A DNA stretch of 40,023 nt. It comes from Nitrospiraceae bacterium. GTDB taxonomy: Bacteria > Nitrospirota > Thermodesulfovibrionia > UBA6902. The notes under the pieces were generated by a model that saw only the letters and a list, made by a program, of their open reading frames with translations, was not told the origin of the DNA and made no database searches. The translations under genes were made by a program, and so were the position numbers. Shown here piece after piece: positions 8,628 to 29,291 of the stretch. Position 1 is the first letter of the stretch, and each line of letters begins with the position of its first letter. The stretch lies in contig CP070632.1 of NCBI GenBank assembly GCA_020356065.1, forward strand, positions 1,654,345 through 1,694,367, read 5' to 3'.

Positions 8628-9998
8628 TTATTCGACCATATATTGAATGCTCGATGTGGCAGAGGGATAGGCATAGAGAACCTCCCTTATCTGCTTTACC
8701 GTAAGTCCGTGCTGCATCGCAAGGGCAAAGATGTTGATTAAATCATCGGCATGACTGTCCAGTATGTGGGCCCCGAGAATTTTCCCTGTGTCCTTTTCGA
8801 TAAGGATCTTGGATCCTGCAAATTTTTGCTGAACTCTTTCATTGTGCAGCCAGGGGGATGTGTCTTTTGATTTAATAATAAAATTCCTGTTCTGCTCCGA
8901 TGCATCGGACTCATGCATCCCTGCTGATGCCAGTTTTGGCAGGGAAAAGACAACACTGGGGACATAGCGGAAGTCCGGCCTTTTCCGTTTCAGCCCGTGG
9001 ACCAGATTATCCGCGACGATCTCTCCCTCACACATTGCTACAGGCGTTAGGGGGATCCCTCCGGCTGTGGCATCACCTGCGGCATATACGCGATCGTTTG
9101 ATATGCTCTGCATATATTCATTTACCATAATCCCTTCAGGGGACCTTTGAATTCCGGCTTGTTCCAGGTTAAGATCATCAATATCAGGGAGCCTCCCGGC
9201 CCCATGAACTACCATATCTGTGGAATATTTTTTTTCACCCGTTTTACTTTCAGCAATGACTGTGAATTCTTTTTTGTATTTTTTGATCTTTCTCAGGGTC
9301 TCGTTTAGGACCACCCTTATCCCTGCCTCTTTCGAGGCCTCCACGAGTCTGGCCGCAAGGTCAGGATCGAATTTTCTGAGCACAGTGTCGCTTTTGTGCA
9401 AAATGACAGCTTCAGTTCCGTACCGTGCTGCGACATGGGCAAATTCAAAGGAAATATAGCCTCCCCCGATAAACAGTATTCTCCGGGGAAGCGTTTCGAG
9501 GTACAGGAACTGTGCACTCGATGTCAGATGGTTCTCTCCCTCGATATTTAGCTGACGGGGCCGGGCACCTGCTGCGATATACACATATCTGCTCTCGAGC
9601 CTTTTACCGCCAGCCTCAATTGCAGAGCGGTTAATGAAACGGGCTTGACACCTGTAAATATGAATGCCCAGTTTCTGAAGGTGTTTTTCATCATCTTCTG
9701 AATACGTTCCTGTCAACCGCTGTTTGAATTTCATCAGGCCGGACCATGACATCGCAGCAGATTCTTTTGTCAGCCCTGCAGCATGCATACGGCGATTAAA
9801 ATCAGCAAGTTCTGCGCCGGTTATGAGTACCTTTTTGGGTACACACCCCCAGAGTGCACATGTTCCGCCCACCCTGTTCTTCTCGATAACCGCTACCTTC
9901 CAGCCTGCCCGTGCCGCTGCAACAGCAACAATTTTTCCTGCATCACCGGTACCAATGACAATAAGATCATACTGTCTGGTTTTGTCCGTTGTTACCAT
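8628..9998 (-). CDS. FAD-dependent pyridine nucleotide-disulfide oxidoreductase (class I, mercuric/dihydrolipoamide reductase-like)
   Basis: A 456-aa flavoenzyme. The N-terminal FAD motif GTGDAG is followed by the redox-active disulfide in GGTCALWGCVPKK (Cys47 and Cys52). A second dinucleotide motif, FIGGGYISFE, lies near residue 176, with an AAGDATAGG FAD-contact segment and a C-terminal dimerisation domain. In glutathione and dihydrolipoamide reductases that domain carries a His-Glu base pair (HPTxxE). Here the matching segment reads YPSATSS, so the dyad is absent. The substrate is therefore unlikely to be an ordinary dithiol handled through that base and cannot be named. The gene converges with ackA and diverges from the Hsp20 group. 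It ends in MVE at 8628. Confidence 0.88.
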   Translation of the reverse strand: MVTTDKTRQYDLIVIGTGDAGKIVAVAAARAGWKVAVIEKNRVGGTCALWGCVPKKVLITGAELADFNRRMHAAGLTKESAAMSWSGLMKFKQRLTGTYSEDDEKHLQKLGIHIYRCQARFINRSAIEAGGKRLESRYVYIAAGARPRQLNIEGENHLTSSAQFLYLETLPRRILFIGGGYISFEFAHVAARYGTEAVILHKSDTVLRKFDPDLAARLVEASKEAGIRVVLNETLRKIKKYKKEFTVIAESKTGEKKYSTDMVVHGAGRLPDIDDLNLEQAGIQRSPEGIMVNEYMQSISNDRVYAAGDATAGGIPLTPVAMCEGEIVADNLVHGLKRKRPDFRYVPSVVFSLPKLASAGMHESDASEQNRNFIIKSKDTSPWLHNERVQQKFAGSKILIEKDTGKILGAHILDSHADDLINIFALAMQHGLTVKQIREVLYAYPSATSSIQYMVE

Positions 9999-10294
9999 TT
10001 ATCCGTCCTTCGCTTTGTTCTGTGATGTACCGTATATCATAAGATTGTCTGAACTTTTACTATTTTTATTCCGGCAGAACACGGTACCTCTCATCATTGG
10101 TTTGACAAGCCCAAAGGTCAGAACTGCATACAGAGAATTATATCATGCCAGGCACCTGCACTCCATGCAGTTCTTAACCATGTTTCCTGAATCCATGTCT
10201 GCCGGTTGACAGGCCTGATCCCTGATTCCTCGAAAGCTGATGATTATAGCTAAATAAGATACTGTTCTTGATACGTTGCCTGAGACTTCTCACA

Positions 10295-10366
10295 TAGGAC
10301 AATTATAGTTCTAGGACAATATGGCCCACATGAAAATGGGTCGAACTGACCTATATTTAGCACAAT
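10295..10366 (+). repeat. TAGnACAAT repeats upstream of the sigma-54 promoter
   Basis: TAGGACAAT occurs at 10295-10303 and 10312-10320, 17 bp apart. A variant TAGCACAAT lies at 10358-10366. They are 37-108 bp upstream of the -24 element, the usual location for enhancer (UAS) sites of a sigma-54 activator. The region is AT-rich, so chance repetition is possible. Confidence 0.4.
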
Positions 10367-10402
10367 ATAAAAAATTTTATTGAAAATTAAATATTTTTAT
10401 TC

Positions 10403-10417
10403 TGGCATTTGTCTTGC
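10403..10417 (+). promoter_or_regulatory. sigma-54 (-24/-12) promoter for the Hsp20 operon
   Basis: TGGCAT, five bases, then TTGC gives the required GG-N10-GC spacing and differs from the consensus TGGCAC-N5-TTGC at one position. It lies 84 bp before the first Hsp20 ATG, with no competing -35/-10 promoter recognised. A sigma-54 activator gene is present at 26.9-28.3 kb. Confidence 0.65.
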
Positions 10418-10500
10418 TAAAATTTGGGCGAAAATATATGGAGCATAGGGTTCGGTAGGTATACCAACTCATTTATTATTAGAAAAGGAGGGTGATAACG

Positions 10501-10926
10501 ATGCTATTTTCGAATAACAGTCACTTATTCTGGGATCCATGGGAACAATTTGACAGTATGAGGCGTATAATGGGGAGATCTGGCACGCGGAGTAGGTCAG
10601 AATTCCCCTTGGTAAACACCTGGGTGTCATCAGATGATTCTATAGTTACGACAGAAATACCGGGAGTTGATCCGGAGAGTATCGATATCAGTGTAACCGG
10701 CAGGACAGTGACACTCAGGGGTTCCCGTAAGGCCGATGACATTCCGCAGTACCGTTCTTATCATCGCAGGGAAAGGTGGAGTGGCGAGTTTTCCAAAGCA
10801 ATAGAGCTTCCCTTTGACATAGAAGCTGACAAAGTCTCTGCCACTTTTAAGAAGGGAGTTCTTCATCTAACTCTTCCAAAGGCAGAAGCGGAAAAACCCA
10901 GAAAGATTGAAATAAAATCCAGCTAA
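10501..10926 (+). CDS. small heat shock protein Hsp20 (first of three)
   Basis: A 141-aa alpha-crystallin-domain chaperone that should hold unfolding proteins in a refoldable state in the cytosol. The N-terminal arm (WDPWEQFDSMRRIMG) is typical of bacterial Hsp20. The crystallin domain runs from about residue 40, with the PGVDPESI segment, and ends in the diagnostic KKGVLHLTLPK. The C-terminal IEI is the oligomerisation I-x-I motif. The ATG at 10501 is preferred over an in-frame GTG at 10492 because the GGAGG at 10487-10491 abuts the GTG but is 9 nt from the ATG. It is the first gene of a tight trio behind the sigma-54 promoter. Confidence 0.95.
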   Translation: MLFSNNSHLFWDPWEQFDSMRRIMGRSGTRSRSEFPLVNTWVSSDDSIVTTEIPGVDPESIDISVTGRTVTLRGSRKADDIPQYRSYHRRERWSGEFSKAIELPFDIEADKVSATFKKGVLHLTLPKAEAEKPRKIEIKSS

Positions 10927-10939
10927 GGAGGTGATGTCA

Positions 10940-11344
10940 ATGGAATCAACAACCAAGGATGTTCAAAAAAAAGAGGCTGAGGTCAAAGAAGGCGTTGAAA
11001 GAACACGGTCAAAAAAACTGTATACGCCACCTGTTGACATAACAGAGGAGAAGGACAGTCTGTTTCTCATTGCAGACATGCCGGGAGTGGACGAGCATTC
11101 AGTGGATATAACACTTGAAAAAAATGTTCTCACAATATATGGGAGAGTTGAGCCGGATGTTCCGGAAAACCACAGGCTTGTTTCTGCCGAATACGGCATT
11201 GGCGATTATCAGCGGACATTTACACTTTCTGATGAAATCGACAGGGAAAAGATCCAGGCGTCAGTAAAAAACGGTGTCCTGAGATTGACCCTTCCAAAGG
11301 CTGAAGCCGCAAAGACACGGAAGATACCGGTCAACGCTGAATAA
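10940..11344 (+). CDS. small heat shock protein Hsp20 (second of three)
   Basis: A 134-aa Hsp20. The N-terminal arm is highly charged (KDVQKKEAEVKEG) and unlike the aromatic arms of its two neighbours. The crystallin domain starts at YTPPVDITEE, passes through DMPGVDEHSVD and ends in KNGVLRLTLPK. The C-terminal IPV matches I-x-I/V. The start is the ATG at 10940, 8 nt after GGAGG (10927-10931); in-frame GTG and ATG codons at 10931 and 10934 overlap or abut that site. It begins 13 nt after the first Hsp20 stop. The different arm suggests a different client range or hetero-oligomer formation with the flanking paralogues, which is inference. Confidence 0.95.
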   Translation: MESTTKDVQKKEAEVKEGVERTRSKKLYTPPVDITEEKDSLFLIADMPGVDEHSVDITLEKNVLTIYGRVEPDVPENHRLVSAEYGIGDYQRTFTLSDEIDREKIQASVKNGVLRLTLPKAEAAKTRKIPVNAE

Positions 11345-11362
11345 CAAAAGGAGGTGATTTAT

Positions 11363-11857
11363 ATGACATGGAAAGACATCGTTCCCTTTAAAAAAAGAAG
11401 TGTGCCGGCAAGGAGAGACAACGGACATCCGTTTCAAAGGCTGCATGATGAAATGGATGCCCTCTTTGACGACTTTTTCACAGGTTTCAACATGGAACCC
11501 TTTGAAGGGCGTCAGGCAAGACCGTTCCGCCCGAACATTGATGTATCTGAGACTGACAATGAATTCAGGGTATCAGCTGAACTTCCCGGTATGGACGATA
11601 AGGACATTGAAGTGAACCTGAACAGGGACTCTCTCACCATCAGGGGTGAGAAGAAACAGGAAAAAGAGGACAAGGGGAAAGACTACTATCACGTAGAACG
11701 CTCATACGGATCATTTACCAGGACCATCCCTCTTCCTGTTGAGATCGAGAGCGACAAGGCTGAAGCACATTTCAAAAAAGGCGTTTTGACAGTTACGGTG
11801 CCAAAAAATGTAAAGGCCGTTGAGTCAAAGAAGAAGATCGCCATAAAGACTGAGTAG
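11363..11857 (+). CDS. small heat shock protein Hsp20 (third of three)
   Basis: A 164-aa Hsp20 with the longest N-terminal arm of the three (PFQRLHDEMDALFDDFF, then GFNMEPFEG). The crystallin domain begins at FRPNIDVSETD. It has ELPGMDDKDIEV, SYGSFTRTIPLP and KKGVLTVTVPK, and the C-terminal I-x-I is IAI. This is the class closest to Hsp17-type proteins of many environmental bacteria. The ATG at 11363 lies 7 nt after AAGGAGGTG (11348-11356) and 18 nt after the previous stop. All three Hsp20 genes share near-perfect ribosome-binding sites, pointing to high expression. A strong stem-loop follows the gene. Confidence 0.96.
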   Translation: MTWKDIVPFKKRSVPARRDNGHPFQRLHDEMDALFDDFFTGFNMEPFEGRQARPFRPNIDVSETDNEFRVSAELPGMDDKDIEVNLNRDSLTIRGEKKQEKEDKGKDYYHVERSYGSFTRTIPLPVEIESDKAEAHFKKGVLTVTVPKNVKAVESKKKIAIKTE

Positions 11858-11880
11858 TTCTGCACGGGAGTGATCTCTCT

Positions 11881-11920
11881 GACAGGGTGAGCGGAACATA
11901 TACAGCATCCGCTCACTGTC
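11881..11920 (+). terminator. long stem-loop after the Hsp20 trio
   Basis: GACAG plus TGAGCGGA on the left (11881-11895, with a two-base bulge) pairs with TCCGCTCA plus CTGTC on the right (11908-11920) around a 12-nt loop. No T-run follows, so it is not a classical intrinsic terminator. It may stabilise the Hsp20 mRNA end or partly separate it from the FmdB gene. Confidence 0.45.
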
Positions 11921-11955
11921 CCGGTTGTGTATTACAGAAATATAGGAGGTTCTAT

Positions 11956-12234
11956 ATGCCGATTTATGAATATTATTGTCCGAACTGCCTCAAGGTTCAT
12001 GAACTCTGGCAGAGTATATACGATACAGACGCACGTGCATGCCCTGAGTGTTCTGAGCTCATGCAAAAGCTCATATCCAAAACCTCGTTTCAACTGAAGG
12101 GTGGGGGATGGTATGAGGATGGGTACTGCACGAAGAAGGATGCGACGGATTTCGAGAAGAACCCGGCTGAAGCTGCCACTTGCGGTAAGGACGGGAATAC
12201 TGATAAACCTGCGTGTGCTGGATGCAGCGCATAA
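11956..12234 (+). CDS. FmdB-family zinc ribbon protein
   Basis: A 92-aa protein with the FmdB/CxxC zinc-ribbon signature: MPIYEYYCPNCLKVHE at the N-terminus and CPECSELMQKLISK, giving two CxxC knuckles for one zinc. A low-complexity tail holds further cysteines (CTKK, CGKDG, CAGCSA). The family is often annotated as a putative regulatory protein, but no biochemical role is established that I can state. The ATG at 11956 is 6 nt after AGGAGG (11944-11949), which decides the start over a longer frame. It follows the Hsp20 trio by about 100 nt on the same strand. Confidence 0.88.
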   Translation: MPIYEYYCPNCLKVHELWQSIYDTDARACPECSELMQKLISKTSFQLKGGGWYEDGYCTKKDATDFEKNPAEAATCGKDGNTDKPACAGCSA

Positions 12235-12455
12235 GCCGGGAAGAACACGTACAATTGGAATTTAAACAGTTTTGCAAAAAGTCGTTATTTGCACATGAAC
12301 TTTTAATCAGAATAGTTAATCTGATAATGCTGGAGAGCAGGAAAATATCTCATTAAGTCCTTGACAGGCATCTGGCGATATACCAGGAGATATGTCACCA
12401 TGCATCTGATCCAAAAAAGTTTTACACGAAAAAATTACGATTAAGGGGTACGTCG

Positions 12456-13931
12456 ATGATGAATAATCAGAAAATAAGTCTGGCGGTGCTGTTTATAACC
12501 ATAGGGCTGATTATTGGTCTTGGAATATCTTTTAATTTTAATGTGACGGAGAACAGTTTTTCTGTTGAGAACCAGCCTGAAATTTCCCAGGAAACGGTTG
12601 ACGTCCTGTCGCGGACAAATCAGGCGATGGCAGAACTGGTAGCAGCTGTCACCCCTTCCATTGTAAACATATCATCGACAAAAACAGTGAAGACGCATGG
12701 ATTTCAGTCACCGTTTTTTAATGATCCTTTTTTCGAAAGGTTTTTCGGTGACCAGTTCGGTCAGCTCAATAAGCCAAGGGAATATAAGCAATCGGGTCTG
12801 GGTTCAGGGGTCATAGTAGATAAGGACGGGTATATCCTTACGAATAATCACGTGATAAAGGATGCGGACGAAATAGTAGTCAAGCTCTCTGACAAAAGGG
12901 AATTTAAAGGAAAAATTATAGGTACTGATCCGAAGACAGACCTCGCTGTTATCAGGATAGATGACGTTGACCTGCCGGTCATAAACATCGGGAACTCAGA
13001 TGATCTGAAAGTCGGAGAAACAGTCATTGCCATTGGTAATCCTTACGGCCTGAGCCAGACCGTCACATCAGGAATTGTAAGCGCAACAGGGAGAGCAAAT
13101 GTCGGTATTGCTGATTATGAAGACTTTATCCAGACAGATGCTCCGATCAACCCCGGGAATTCAGGCGGCGCGCTTGTCAATATAAAAGGAGAACTGGTGG
13201 GAATCAATACAGCAATATTCAGCACCTCAGGAGGATATCAGGGTATAGGGTTTGCCATACCGACAAACATGGCCAAATCAGTAATGAAGAGTCTCATAAA
13301 AGAAGGAAAAGTTATTCGCGGGTGGCTTGGTGTATCAATTCAGCCGGTGTCAGAAGATATTGCAGAACACTTTAATCTGAAGGAACAGAAAGGCGCGCTT
13401 GTTGCCGAGGTCGTTGAGGACAGTCCAGCTGAAAAGGCAAAACTGGAAAGAGGGGATGTTATCATCCGTTATGACGGCAGGGAAGTGGATGATCCGGACC
13501 ATCTGAGAAACATGGTTGCCGCAACGCTTCCTGAAGCAAAGGTCGAAATATCAGTTATGCGTGACGGAAAAGAGATGAACAGGACCGTTGAGATAGGGGA
13601 GATCCCTTCTGATATAAACGTTGCTTCAGGATCATATGAATATGATAATGTCCTTGACGGGGTAAGTGTTCAAAATTTAACTCCTGAATTAAGAAACTCA
13701 TTGAGTATTCCCAAGCGTGTCTCGGGAGTGCTGGTAAACGCGGTAGATGCTGACAGTGCAGCAGCAGGGGCAGTGAAAAAAGATGATGTGATCATGGAAA
13801 TTAACAGAAGAAATATCATGAATGCTGATACGTACCGAAAAGTGGTGTCAAAGATCGGGTCAGGTGATGGCGTACTGCTCCTCCTGTACCGGAACGGTGC
13901 AACAATCTATATAACACTGGCAGGTAAATAG
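12456..13931 (+). CDS. HtrA/DegP-type periplasmic serine protease with two PDZ domains
   Basis: A 491-aa trypsin-like protease and chaperone for envelope protein quality control. An N-terminal hydrophobic segment (about residues 7-26) acts as signal or anchor. The catalytic triad is complete: His132 in TNNHVIKDA, Asp162 in PKTDLAVI and Ser236 in PGNSGGAL. Two PDZ domains follow, about 290-380 and 400-490 (GVLVNAVDADSAAAGAVKKDD). Linker residues rich in Phe (FFNDPFFERFFGDQF) form the LA loop typical of DegP/DegQ. The start is ATG 12456 or ATG 12459 behind AAGGGG. The gene lies 220 bp after the FmdB gene, placing envelope protease and cytosolic Hsp20 genes side by side. Confidence 0.95.
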   Translation: MMNNQKISLAVLFITIGLIIGLGISFNFNVTENSFSVENQPEISQETVDVLSRTNQAMAELVAAVTPSIVNISSTKTVKTHGFQSPFFNDPFFERFFGDQFGQLNKPREYKQSGLGSGVIVDKDGYILTNNHVIKDADEIVVKLSDKREFKGKIIGTDPKTDLAVIRIDDVDLPVINIGNSDDLKVGETVIAIGNPYGLSQTVTSGIVSATGRANVGIADYEDFIQTDAPINPGNSGGALVNIKGELVGINTAIFSTSGGYQGIGFAIPTNMAKSVMKSLIKEGKVIRGWLGVSIQPVSEDIAEHFNLKEQKGALVAEVVEDSPAEKAKLERGDVIIRYDGREVDDPDHLRNMVAATLPEAKVEISVMRDGKEMNRTVEIGEIPSDINVASGSYEYDNVLDGVSVQNLTPELRNSLSIPKRVSGVLVNAVDADSAAAGAVKKDDVIMEINRRNIMNADTYRKVVSKIGSGDGVLLLLYRNGATIYITLAGK

Positions 13932-26894: not shown

Positions 26895-28262
26895 CTATAT
26901 GCCCTTTACTTTCCTCTGGATTGTTCTCAATCCGATACCGAGAAGTCTGGCCGCCTTTGTCTGATTGCCGTTGGTCTTTGCAAGGGTCTGCGATATGATT
27001 TCCTGCTCCATTTCCTGCAGGGTGAGGTTTTGAGGTATTTGATAGAAATCAACGTCCTGGGGCTTGGTCATGAGTAAAAATGACGGAAGATATTTTGCGT
27101 CTATTATATCAGTTGTTGAAAGCGCCATGGCTGACTCAATTGCATTTTCAAGCTCCCTGATATTCCCGGGCCATTTGTAATTCAGAAGGATCTGCATTGC
27201 CTCTTTTGTGATACCCTTAATACCGTAATCCTTTTCATCATTGAACTTCTGAATGAACGAACTTACGAGCAGGGGGATATCGTCTTTGCGTTTTCTCAGA
27301 GGGGGGAGCTCAATATGTACAACGTTTAGTCGATAAAAAAGGTCTTCCCTGAATCTGCCCTCATGAATGAGCAGTCTCAGGTCCTGATGAGTTGCAGCGA
27401 TCACCCTGACATCGACCTTTATCTTATCGTTGCCGCCTACCCTTTCAAATGATTTTTCCTGAAGGACTCTGAGCAGTTTGACCTGTGTGCCGGGAGGCAT
27501 GTCACCTATTTCATCAAGAAACATTGTTCCGCCTTCAGCAAGTTCAAACCGTCCTATTCTTTTTGTAACCGCGCCTGTAAAGGAGCCTTTTTCATGTCCG
27601 AAGAGTTCTGATTCGAGAACTCCTTCACTCAGGGCTGCGCAGTTAACGCCGATGAATGGTTTTGATGCACGGGGACTGTTGTAATGTATTGCACTGGCAA
27701 TCATTTCCTTGCCTGACCCGGTTTCACCGGTGAGAAGTATGTTTACATTCTTTGGTGATATTGAACCCACAATGTTAAGAACATGCTGCATGGCCTTGCT
27801 CCTGCCGATAATTTTACCCGGATCAAATTTTTCCTTAACCTTCTGCTCGAGTTCTGTTTTTTCGACAGAAAGGGTCTCCTTTTCAATGGCTTTCTTAATT
27901 ACGGCAAGTATCAATTTTGTGTTAACGGGAAATTCATAAAAGTCATATGCTCCTTCTTTCATGGCCTCAATAGCTGTTGACATTGTGGCCTTTTCAGAGA
28001 GAAATATCAGCTCAATGTGAGGTCTGAGCTTTTTCGTTTTTTTTAAGAATGCCAGCCCCTTTATATCAGAATGATCATAGTCTGCAATCATGATATTTAC
28101 AGGATTATTTCTTAATATATCGTATGACTCTTTTGATGAAGAAGCGCATAAAATATGTGCTCCCTTTCTTTTCAAATATGCCATTAACCGCTCCCACCTG
28201 CTGTCCCCCTTGTCGCTTACAAACAGGATGTTTACATTGAGCTCGCGGGCTTTTCTAACCAT
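26895..28262 (-). CDS. NtrC-family sigma-54 activator with degenerate receiver domain
   Basis: A 455-aa enhancer-binding regulator. The receiver domain (about 10-130) keeps the phosphoacceptor Asp61 (IMIADYD). One of the N-terminal acidic pair is Ser (VSD at 15-17), and the conserved Lys before Pro is Phe111 (EFP). The AAA+ domain has Walker A GETGSGKE (179-186), the sigma-54 contact loop GSFTGA (226-231, usually GAFTGA) and Walker B MFLDEIGD. A Fis-type helix-turn-helix ends the protein (NQTKAARLLGIGLRTIQRK). No histidine kinase gene adjoins it. It diverges from a small-gene cluster with its own -24/-12 promoter, the most likely target; the Hsp20 promoter is another candidate. Confidence 0.93.
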   Translation of the reverse strand: MVRKARELNVNILFVSDKGDSRWERLMAYLKRKGAHILCASSSKESYDILRNNPVNIMIADYDHSDIKGLAFLKKTKKLRPHIELIFLSEKATMSTAIEAMKEGAYDFYEFPVNTKLILAVIKKAIEKETLSVEKTELEQKVKEKFDPGKIIGRSKAMQHVLNIVGSISPKNVNILLTGETGSGKEMIASAIHYNSPRASKPFIGVNCAALSEGVLESELFGHEKGSFTGAVTKRIGRFELAEGGTMFLDEIGDMPPGTQVKLLRVLQEKSFERVGGNDKIKVDVRVIAATHQDLRLLIHEGRFREDLFYRLNVVHIELPPLRKRKDDIPLLVSSFIQKFNDEKDYGIKGITKEAMQILLNYKWPGNIRELENAIESAMALSTTDIIDAKYLPSFLLMTKPQDVDFYQIPQNLTLQEMEQEIISQTLAKTNGNQTKAARLLGIGLRTIQRKVKGI

Positions 28263-28898: not shown

Positions 28899-29291
28899 AT
28901 GGTGCAGGCGATGAAAAAGAACTTTATAAAAAAAGTCGCAAAAAAACTCAATGTCTCTGAAAAGATTTCCTCAAACAGACGAAACGGCAGGATCAAAAAA
29001 GAGTATCTGAAATCAAGACCGGGATGTAAGGTAACGTTCAGGCTTCCAAAGGATGCAGCGCCTCAGGCTCAGATAGTTAATATAGCCGGAGACTTTAACA
29101 ACTGGGACAAGGATCATACCAAGATGAAGCAGCTGAAAAACGGTGATTTTACCATCACCCTTGAGCTTGAAAAAGGAAGAGAGTACCGCTTCAGGTATCT
29201 CATTGACAACAGGAGATGGGAGAACGACTGGTTCGCGGACAAATATGTACCAAATTTGTACGGCGGTGATGATTCTGTAGTTGTTGTTTAG
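28899..29291 (+). CDS. CBM48/AMPK-type glycogen-binding domain protein
   Basis: A 130-aa cytosolic protein. A basic N-terminal tail (residues 1-43, many Lys and Arg) is followed by one early-set carbohydrate-binding domain of the isoamylase-N/AMPK-beta type (about 44-130). Marks are KVTFRLP, NIAGDFNNWD, FTITLELEKGREYRFRYLID and the closing NPYGGDDSV-like NLYGGDDSVVVV. Such domains bind alpha-glucans, but no catalytic module is attached. The start is ATG 28899 or ATG 28911 (MKKNF); neither has a strong ribosome-binding site. It lies 46 nt after the acidic gene and may share its transcript. It may link glycogen-like granules to regulation, together with GlgP at 33.7-35.9 kb. Confidence 0.85.
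   Translation: MVQAMKKNFIKKVAKKLNVSEKISSNRRNGRIKKEYLKSRPGCKVTFRLPKDAAPQAQIVNIAGDFNNWDKDHTKMKQLKNGDFTITLELEKGREYRFRYLIDNRRWENDWFADKYVPNLYGGDDSVVVV

Follow-up and report, generated by a model that had tools for sequence, protein, structure and literature searches.

How are the small heat-shock genes of a Nitrospiraceae bacterium switched on? The bacterial heat-shock regulons described so far are mostly governed by sigma-32 or by the repressors HrcA, CtsR and HspR, and the three tandem Hsp20 genes considered here follow a candidate sigma-54 promoter. They lie in a stretch of 40,023 nucleotides, hereafter the window, within a single-contig genome of 3.17 Mb (G000), whose nearest named relatives in the HspA comparison are Nitrospirae. 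All three products carry the alpha-crystallin domain PF00011, with scores of 71.3, 67.8 and 87.6 bits for hspA, hspB and hspC against a cut-off of 20.8, so that the trio recognized by an earlier, sequence-only reading of the locus stands as described (Table 1). On the same strand and 3' of the trio, positions 11956-13931 encode an FmdB-type zinc ribbon protein and a protease of the DegP/HtrA family; another Deg-like protease adjoins the hrcA operon elsewhere in the genome.

Table 1. Coordinates of the genes and regulatory elements under discussion (window positions unless another sequence is named)
Feature	Position	Strand	Remarks
Enhancer site 1, half site	10295..10311	+	TAGGACA retained, other half degenerate; matrix score -6.8; spacing to site 2 of 17 bp, shared with relatives
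Enhancer site 2, TAGGACAATATGGCCCA	10312..10328	+	Rank 1 in window
Enhancer site 3, TGGGTCGAACTGACCTA	10337..10353	+	Rank 2 in window; spacing from site 2 of 25 bp, shared with relatives; one mismatch
Predicted sigma-54 -24/-12 promoter, TGGCATTTGTCTTGCT	10403..10418	+	GG-N10-GC; kept in L010; predicted start near 10429
hspA, Hsp20 family	10501..10926	+	PF00011, E 8e-20
hspB, Hsp20 family	10940..11344	+	PF00011, E 1e-18
hspC, Hsp20 family	11363..11857	+	PF00011, E 7e-25
Sigma-54 activator, GSFTGA variant	26895-28262		Receiver Asp intact; complete AAA+ and Fis-type domain
62-aa ORF, no known family	L173:1000-1188 (G000:C1 ~2691.5 kb)		Between sigma-54 element and dnaK2

A predicted sigma-54 promoter and the alternatives to it

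The promoter upstream of the trio reads TGGCAT-TTGTC-TTGC-T and departs by a single mismatch from the near-consensus TGGCAC-N5-TTGC. Between its GG (10404-10405) and GC (10416-10417) dinucleotides lie 10 bases, and 84 bp separate the latter from the hspA ATG (10501), as the earlier reading had it. Genome-wide, the pattern TGGCAY-N5-TTGCW occurs 37 times, versus 3 occurrences of a reversed control pattern, and a genome search places rpoN at G000:C1:388148-388621 (PF04552, E 4e-61). The locus with the closest ortholog (L010, HspA 74% identity) has the promoter TTCTGGCATTCGGTTTGCTAA where the window has TTCTGGCATTTGTCTTGCTAA, and the same promoter recurs before orthologous Hsp20 genes of other Nitrospirota; at a further locus (L022) a -24/-12-like site is present and the enhancer array described below is absent. 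Judged by this comparison, the window promoter is real and conserved, and the trio is very probably switched on through sigma-54 together with a dedicated activator.

A competing explanation would have the trio induced by heat through sigma-32, HrcA/CIRCE, HspR or an RNA thermometer, with the sigma-54 promoter in a secondary role. Such an arrangement has a precedent in E. coli, where ibpB, a small heat-shock gene, is transcribed with sigma-54 as is proposed for our locus, with the difference that sigma-32 also transcribes ibpAB (PMC4370416). Furthermore, orthologous hsp20 genes of other Nitrospirae carry, in place of the sigma-54 element, a CIRCE site (L012, at L012:7922) or a near-CIRCE repeat (L011, upstream of 205), which indicates that control has been swapped within the phylum. 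Against this explanation, positions 10001-10520 of the window yielded no CIRCE, HAIR, sigma-32 (CTTGAA and CCCCATNT boxes) or CtsR-like motif, and Rfam returned no ROSE element or other RNA thermometer at E <=1 in 9900-12300, in agreement with the initial impression that sigma-32, HrcA/CIRCE and ROSE control were not visible here. The genome as a whole, searched with up to 3 mismatches, holds only two CIRCE sites, at hrcA and at groES, which sets the trio apart from the HrcA/CIRCE regulon. We therefore consider it improbable that one of these classical systems is the principal control of the window trio. The L010 contig encodes a MerR regulator resembling HspR and also has a gene of CbpA/DnaJ type, both ~4-5 kb from its Hsp20 trio (L010:2307-3702).

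A conserved array of palindromes upstream of the promoter

The sequence-only reading had pointed to TAGnACAAT repeats at 10295, 10312 and 10358 as possible enhancer sites. The repeats are present and the position of the enhancer is as suspected; nevertheless, comparison with relatives indicates a palindrome of 17 bp, TrGGnCAnnnTGnCCyA, as the functional element, of which the repeats are partly fragments. The earlier reading missed the site at 10337, and the repeat TAGCACAAT at 10358 falls outside the array and was discarded as an enhancer site. Relatives carry three full palindromes just 5' of the -24/-12 element, whereas the window retains two full sites and one half site of this putative enhancer, an organization of spaced palindromes 5' of a promoter that resembles the three-site enhancer of NorR.

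It had also been cautioned that the repeats could be a chance product of AT-rich DNA, and the same objection extends to the promoter: a lone promoter with one mismatch is weak evidence and TAGnACAAT is short. Both elements are nevertheless conserved and, when the window was scored with a palindrome matrix trained on 39 sites from other genomes only, the palindromes at 10312 and 10337 ranked first and second across the 40 kb. For the three-site array (10295/10312/10337) the score is 28.8, whereas 15 shuffled sequences of 40 kb never exceeded 10.6, and TRGGNCANNNTGNCCYA has its sole exact match in the genome at enhancer site 2. Taken together, these results contradict a fortuitous resemblance, to which we assign a very small probability indeed. 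With both spacings left free (14-39 bp), most loci settle on 17 + 24/25 bp, and the distance from the core of the last site to the promoter falls into two classes, 52-56 and 63-68, that differ by roughly one turn of the helix, as would be expected if the DNA always looped from the same side. Elsewhere in the genome, five cores that resemble the enhancer (at 519, 905, 1800, 1859 and 2756 kb) were set aside, as they lie inside long open frames with no sigma-54 promoter nearby.

The candidate activator and its proposed regulon

The nearest gene for a sigma-54 activator, at 26.9-28.3 kb of the window, had been proposed as the regulator of the trio, and its complete AAA+ and Fis-type domains speak for it; the genome moreover encodes ~26 full-length activators, any of which might act on a genuine sigma-54 promoter. 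However, this protein reads GSFTGA in place of GAFTGA, keeps the Asp of its receiver, has no evident tie to the palindromes and is only 37% identical to a second, 467-aa activator (G000:C1:842645-844045) encoded 820 kb from the window, directly 5' of a second Hsp20 trio (~844.5-845.9 kb), which has its own promoter, AGGCATCTCATTTGCA. The palindromes track the family of the latter: throughout the order and the phylum they are found between its genes and those for Hsp20. While sigma-54 control as such is strongly supported by the comparison and by the presence of rpoN, the activator first proposed is thus probably the wrong one, and there is little likelihood that it or another of the ~26 drives the promoter. 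A CBM48 protein is encoded near it, at 28899-29291.

The 467-aa protein combines a sigma-54 interaction domain, a Walker A motif, GAFTGA, a Fis-type HTH and a receiver domain, the constituents of an NtrC-type activator. Its receiver has Ala at the phosphoacceptor position, and the Asp is absent from 37 of 41 orthologs; by these features it counts as a bEBP, though not as a response regulator of the ordinary kind. The Asp is kept in four more distant orthologs (L100, L103, L107 and L109), and the loss of phosphorylation may therefore be traceable on a tree.

Within the order, 26 of 47 genomes encode an ortholog of this activator (E <=1e-120). Hsp20 genes lie directly downstream of it in 17 of these, with three-site arrays and -24/-12 elements in between, and in the remaining 9 there is no Hsp20 gene within ~1.5 kb downstream. 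Across the phylum, an ortholog is found in 45 of 396 sampled genomes (E <=1e-110). The element and the activator are associated with a Fisher p of 1.3e-8 when genomes are counted without regard to ancestry. In three genomes (G011, G012, G030), all of them incomplete assemblies, the element is present and no activator reached the cut-off applied. Among the loci of HspA homologues, L015, of a Nitrospirae genome, is the only one with a gene for a close activator next to hsp20. We propose from this co-occurrence that the cognate activator of the window trio is probably the GAFTGA protein at 842.6-844.0 kb, acting in trans.

The extent of the putative regulon was explored with a composite pattern of sigma-54 promoter and palindrome core, which has 33 matches in the 47 order genomes versus none in the control. 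Most matches precede hsp20 operons and others precede dnaK, often via a 62-aa ORF. In the genome under study the pattern retrieves the second Hsp20 trio, with its array near 844.34-844.40 kb, together with the operon in which a 62-aa ORF precedes dnaK2 (2691.4 kb; array near 2691.34-2691.38 kb); the window trio escapes its strict form because the last site has one mismatch. At the phylum level there are 61 matches versus 12 in the control, and many of those in families that lack the activator are therefore probably background. The ORF is exactly 62 aa in five genomes (the present one and relatives L162, L163, L168 and L169), with conserved ends (MASxS... and ...E(G/A)(K/N)A), a divergent middle and no Pfam match. 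In the relative G011, a glycosyltransferase gene and an apparent gene of glycogen-debranching type, located 5' of dnaK, likewise follow this sigma-54 element (L212:10771).

DnaK2 is 74% identical to DnaK1, which is encoded in the CIRCE-marked hrcA-grpE-dnaK-dnaJ operon. With the element before dnaK2 on one side and CIRCE at hrcA-grpE-dnaK1-dnaJ and groES on the other, control of the chaperones seems to be shared out between HrcA and sigma-54 in two branches, one of them probably sigma-54-driven. Overall, we estimate at roughly four in five the probability that the window trio is one of three operons in a sigma-54-dependent chaperone regulon served by the 467-aa activator.

A proposed mechanism and its relation to known systems

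Dimers of the 467-aa activator would bind the 17-bp palindromes and assemble into an AAA+ hexamer on the enhancer, as described for NorR, the presence of three sites for three dimers being consistent with such an assembly. The hexamer would then reach the promoter by DNA looping and activate RpoN polymerase, at the window trio from a gene located in trans. As its receiver lacks the Asp and no kinase gene is seen in the neighbourhood, the activator is probably switched by another partner rather than by phosphorylation. We venture the guess that this partner may be the chaperones themselves, as PspA is for PspF. The psp system is a sigma-54 stress operon beside its own activator, whose product PspA inhibits PspF; it differs in that PspF has no receiver domain and targets membrane-stress proteins, and the feedback is in our case only proposed. 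Heat or misfolded protein is assumed to be the inducer from the nature of the targets. More tentatively still, and with the odds against it, the pseudo-receiver activator could be a master proteostasis regulator in this Nitrospirota lineage, set by its free chaperone products and operating in parallel to HrcA.

At E. coli ibpB, neither a dedicated activator nor an array of three sites is known to us, nor is dnaK known as a co-target. At E. coli norVW, three enhancer sites 5' of the sigma-54 promoter, all of them essential, scaffold the NorR oligomer (PMC2941729). By its domain composition, the 842.6 kb activator would work like NorR but is not a NorR member: the GAF domain of NorR senses NO, whereas here a degenerate receiver takes the place of a GAF sensor and the targets are chaperone genes. 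A pseudo-receiver is also found in FleQ of Pseudomonas, an NtrC-family activator that, in contrast, controls flagella and biofilm and responds to c-di-GMP (PMC12632262). HrcA/CIRCE likewise governs a chaperone regulon, in this genome included, but HrcA is a repressor with another operator, of which the Hsp20 trio has no copy.

Sigma-54 promoters have been predicted before chaperone genes of Planctomycetota and Bacteroidota, in an in-silico cluster with COG0071 (IbpA), GroEL, GrpE and DnaK; the text of that paper does not mention Nitrospirota, and neither an activator nor an enhancer appears in the passages considered here (PMC12316311). In the paper on the sigma-54 regulome of D. vulgaris, searching the text for 'hsp' gave no match (PMC4641369). 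Hence, sigma-54 control of a small heat-shock protein is already known from E. coli ibpB, and for a chaperone regulon, activator or enhancer of the present kind we found no report in searches of the open-access literature.

Part of protein repair in this Nitrospiraceae bacterium is thus apparently run through an unusual kind of switch. Here, the switching of a pseudo-receiver activator, described as a mystery in a review of 2025 (PMC12632262), can be put to the test. If our reading is true, a positive, ATP-gated control of chaperones would coexist in this organism with repression by HrcA, having an activator and an enhancer layout of its own and, as targets, Hsp20 operons and a second DnaK.
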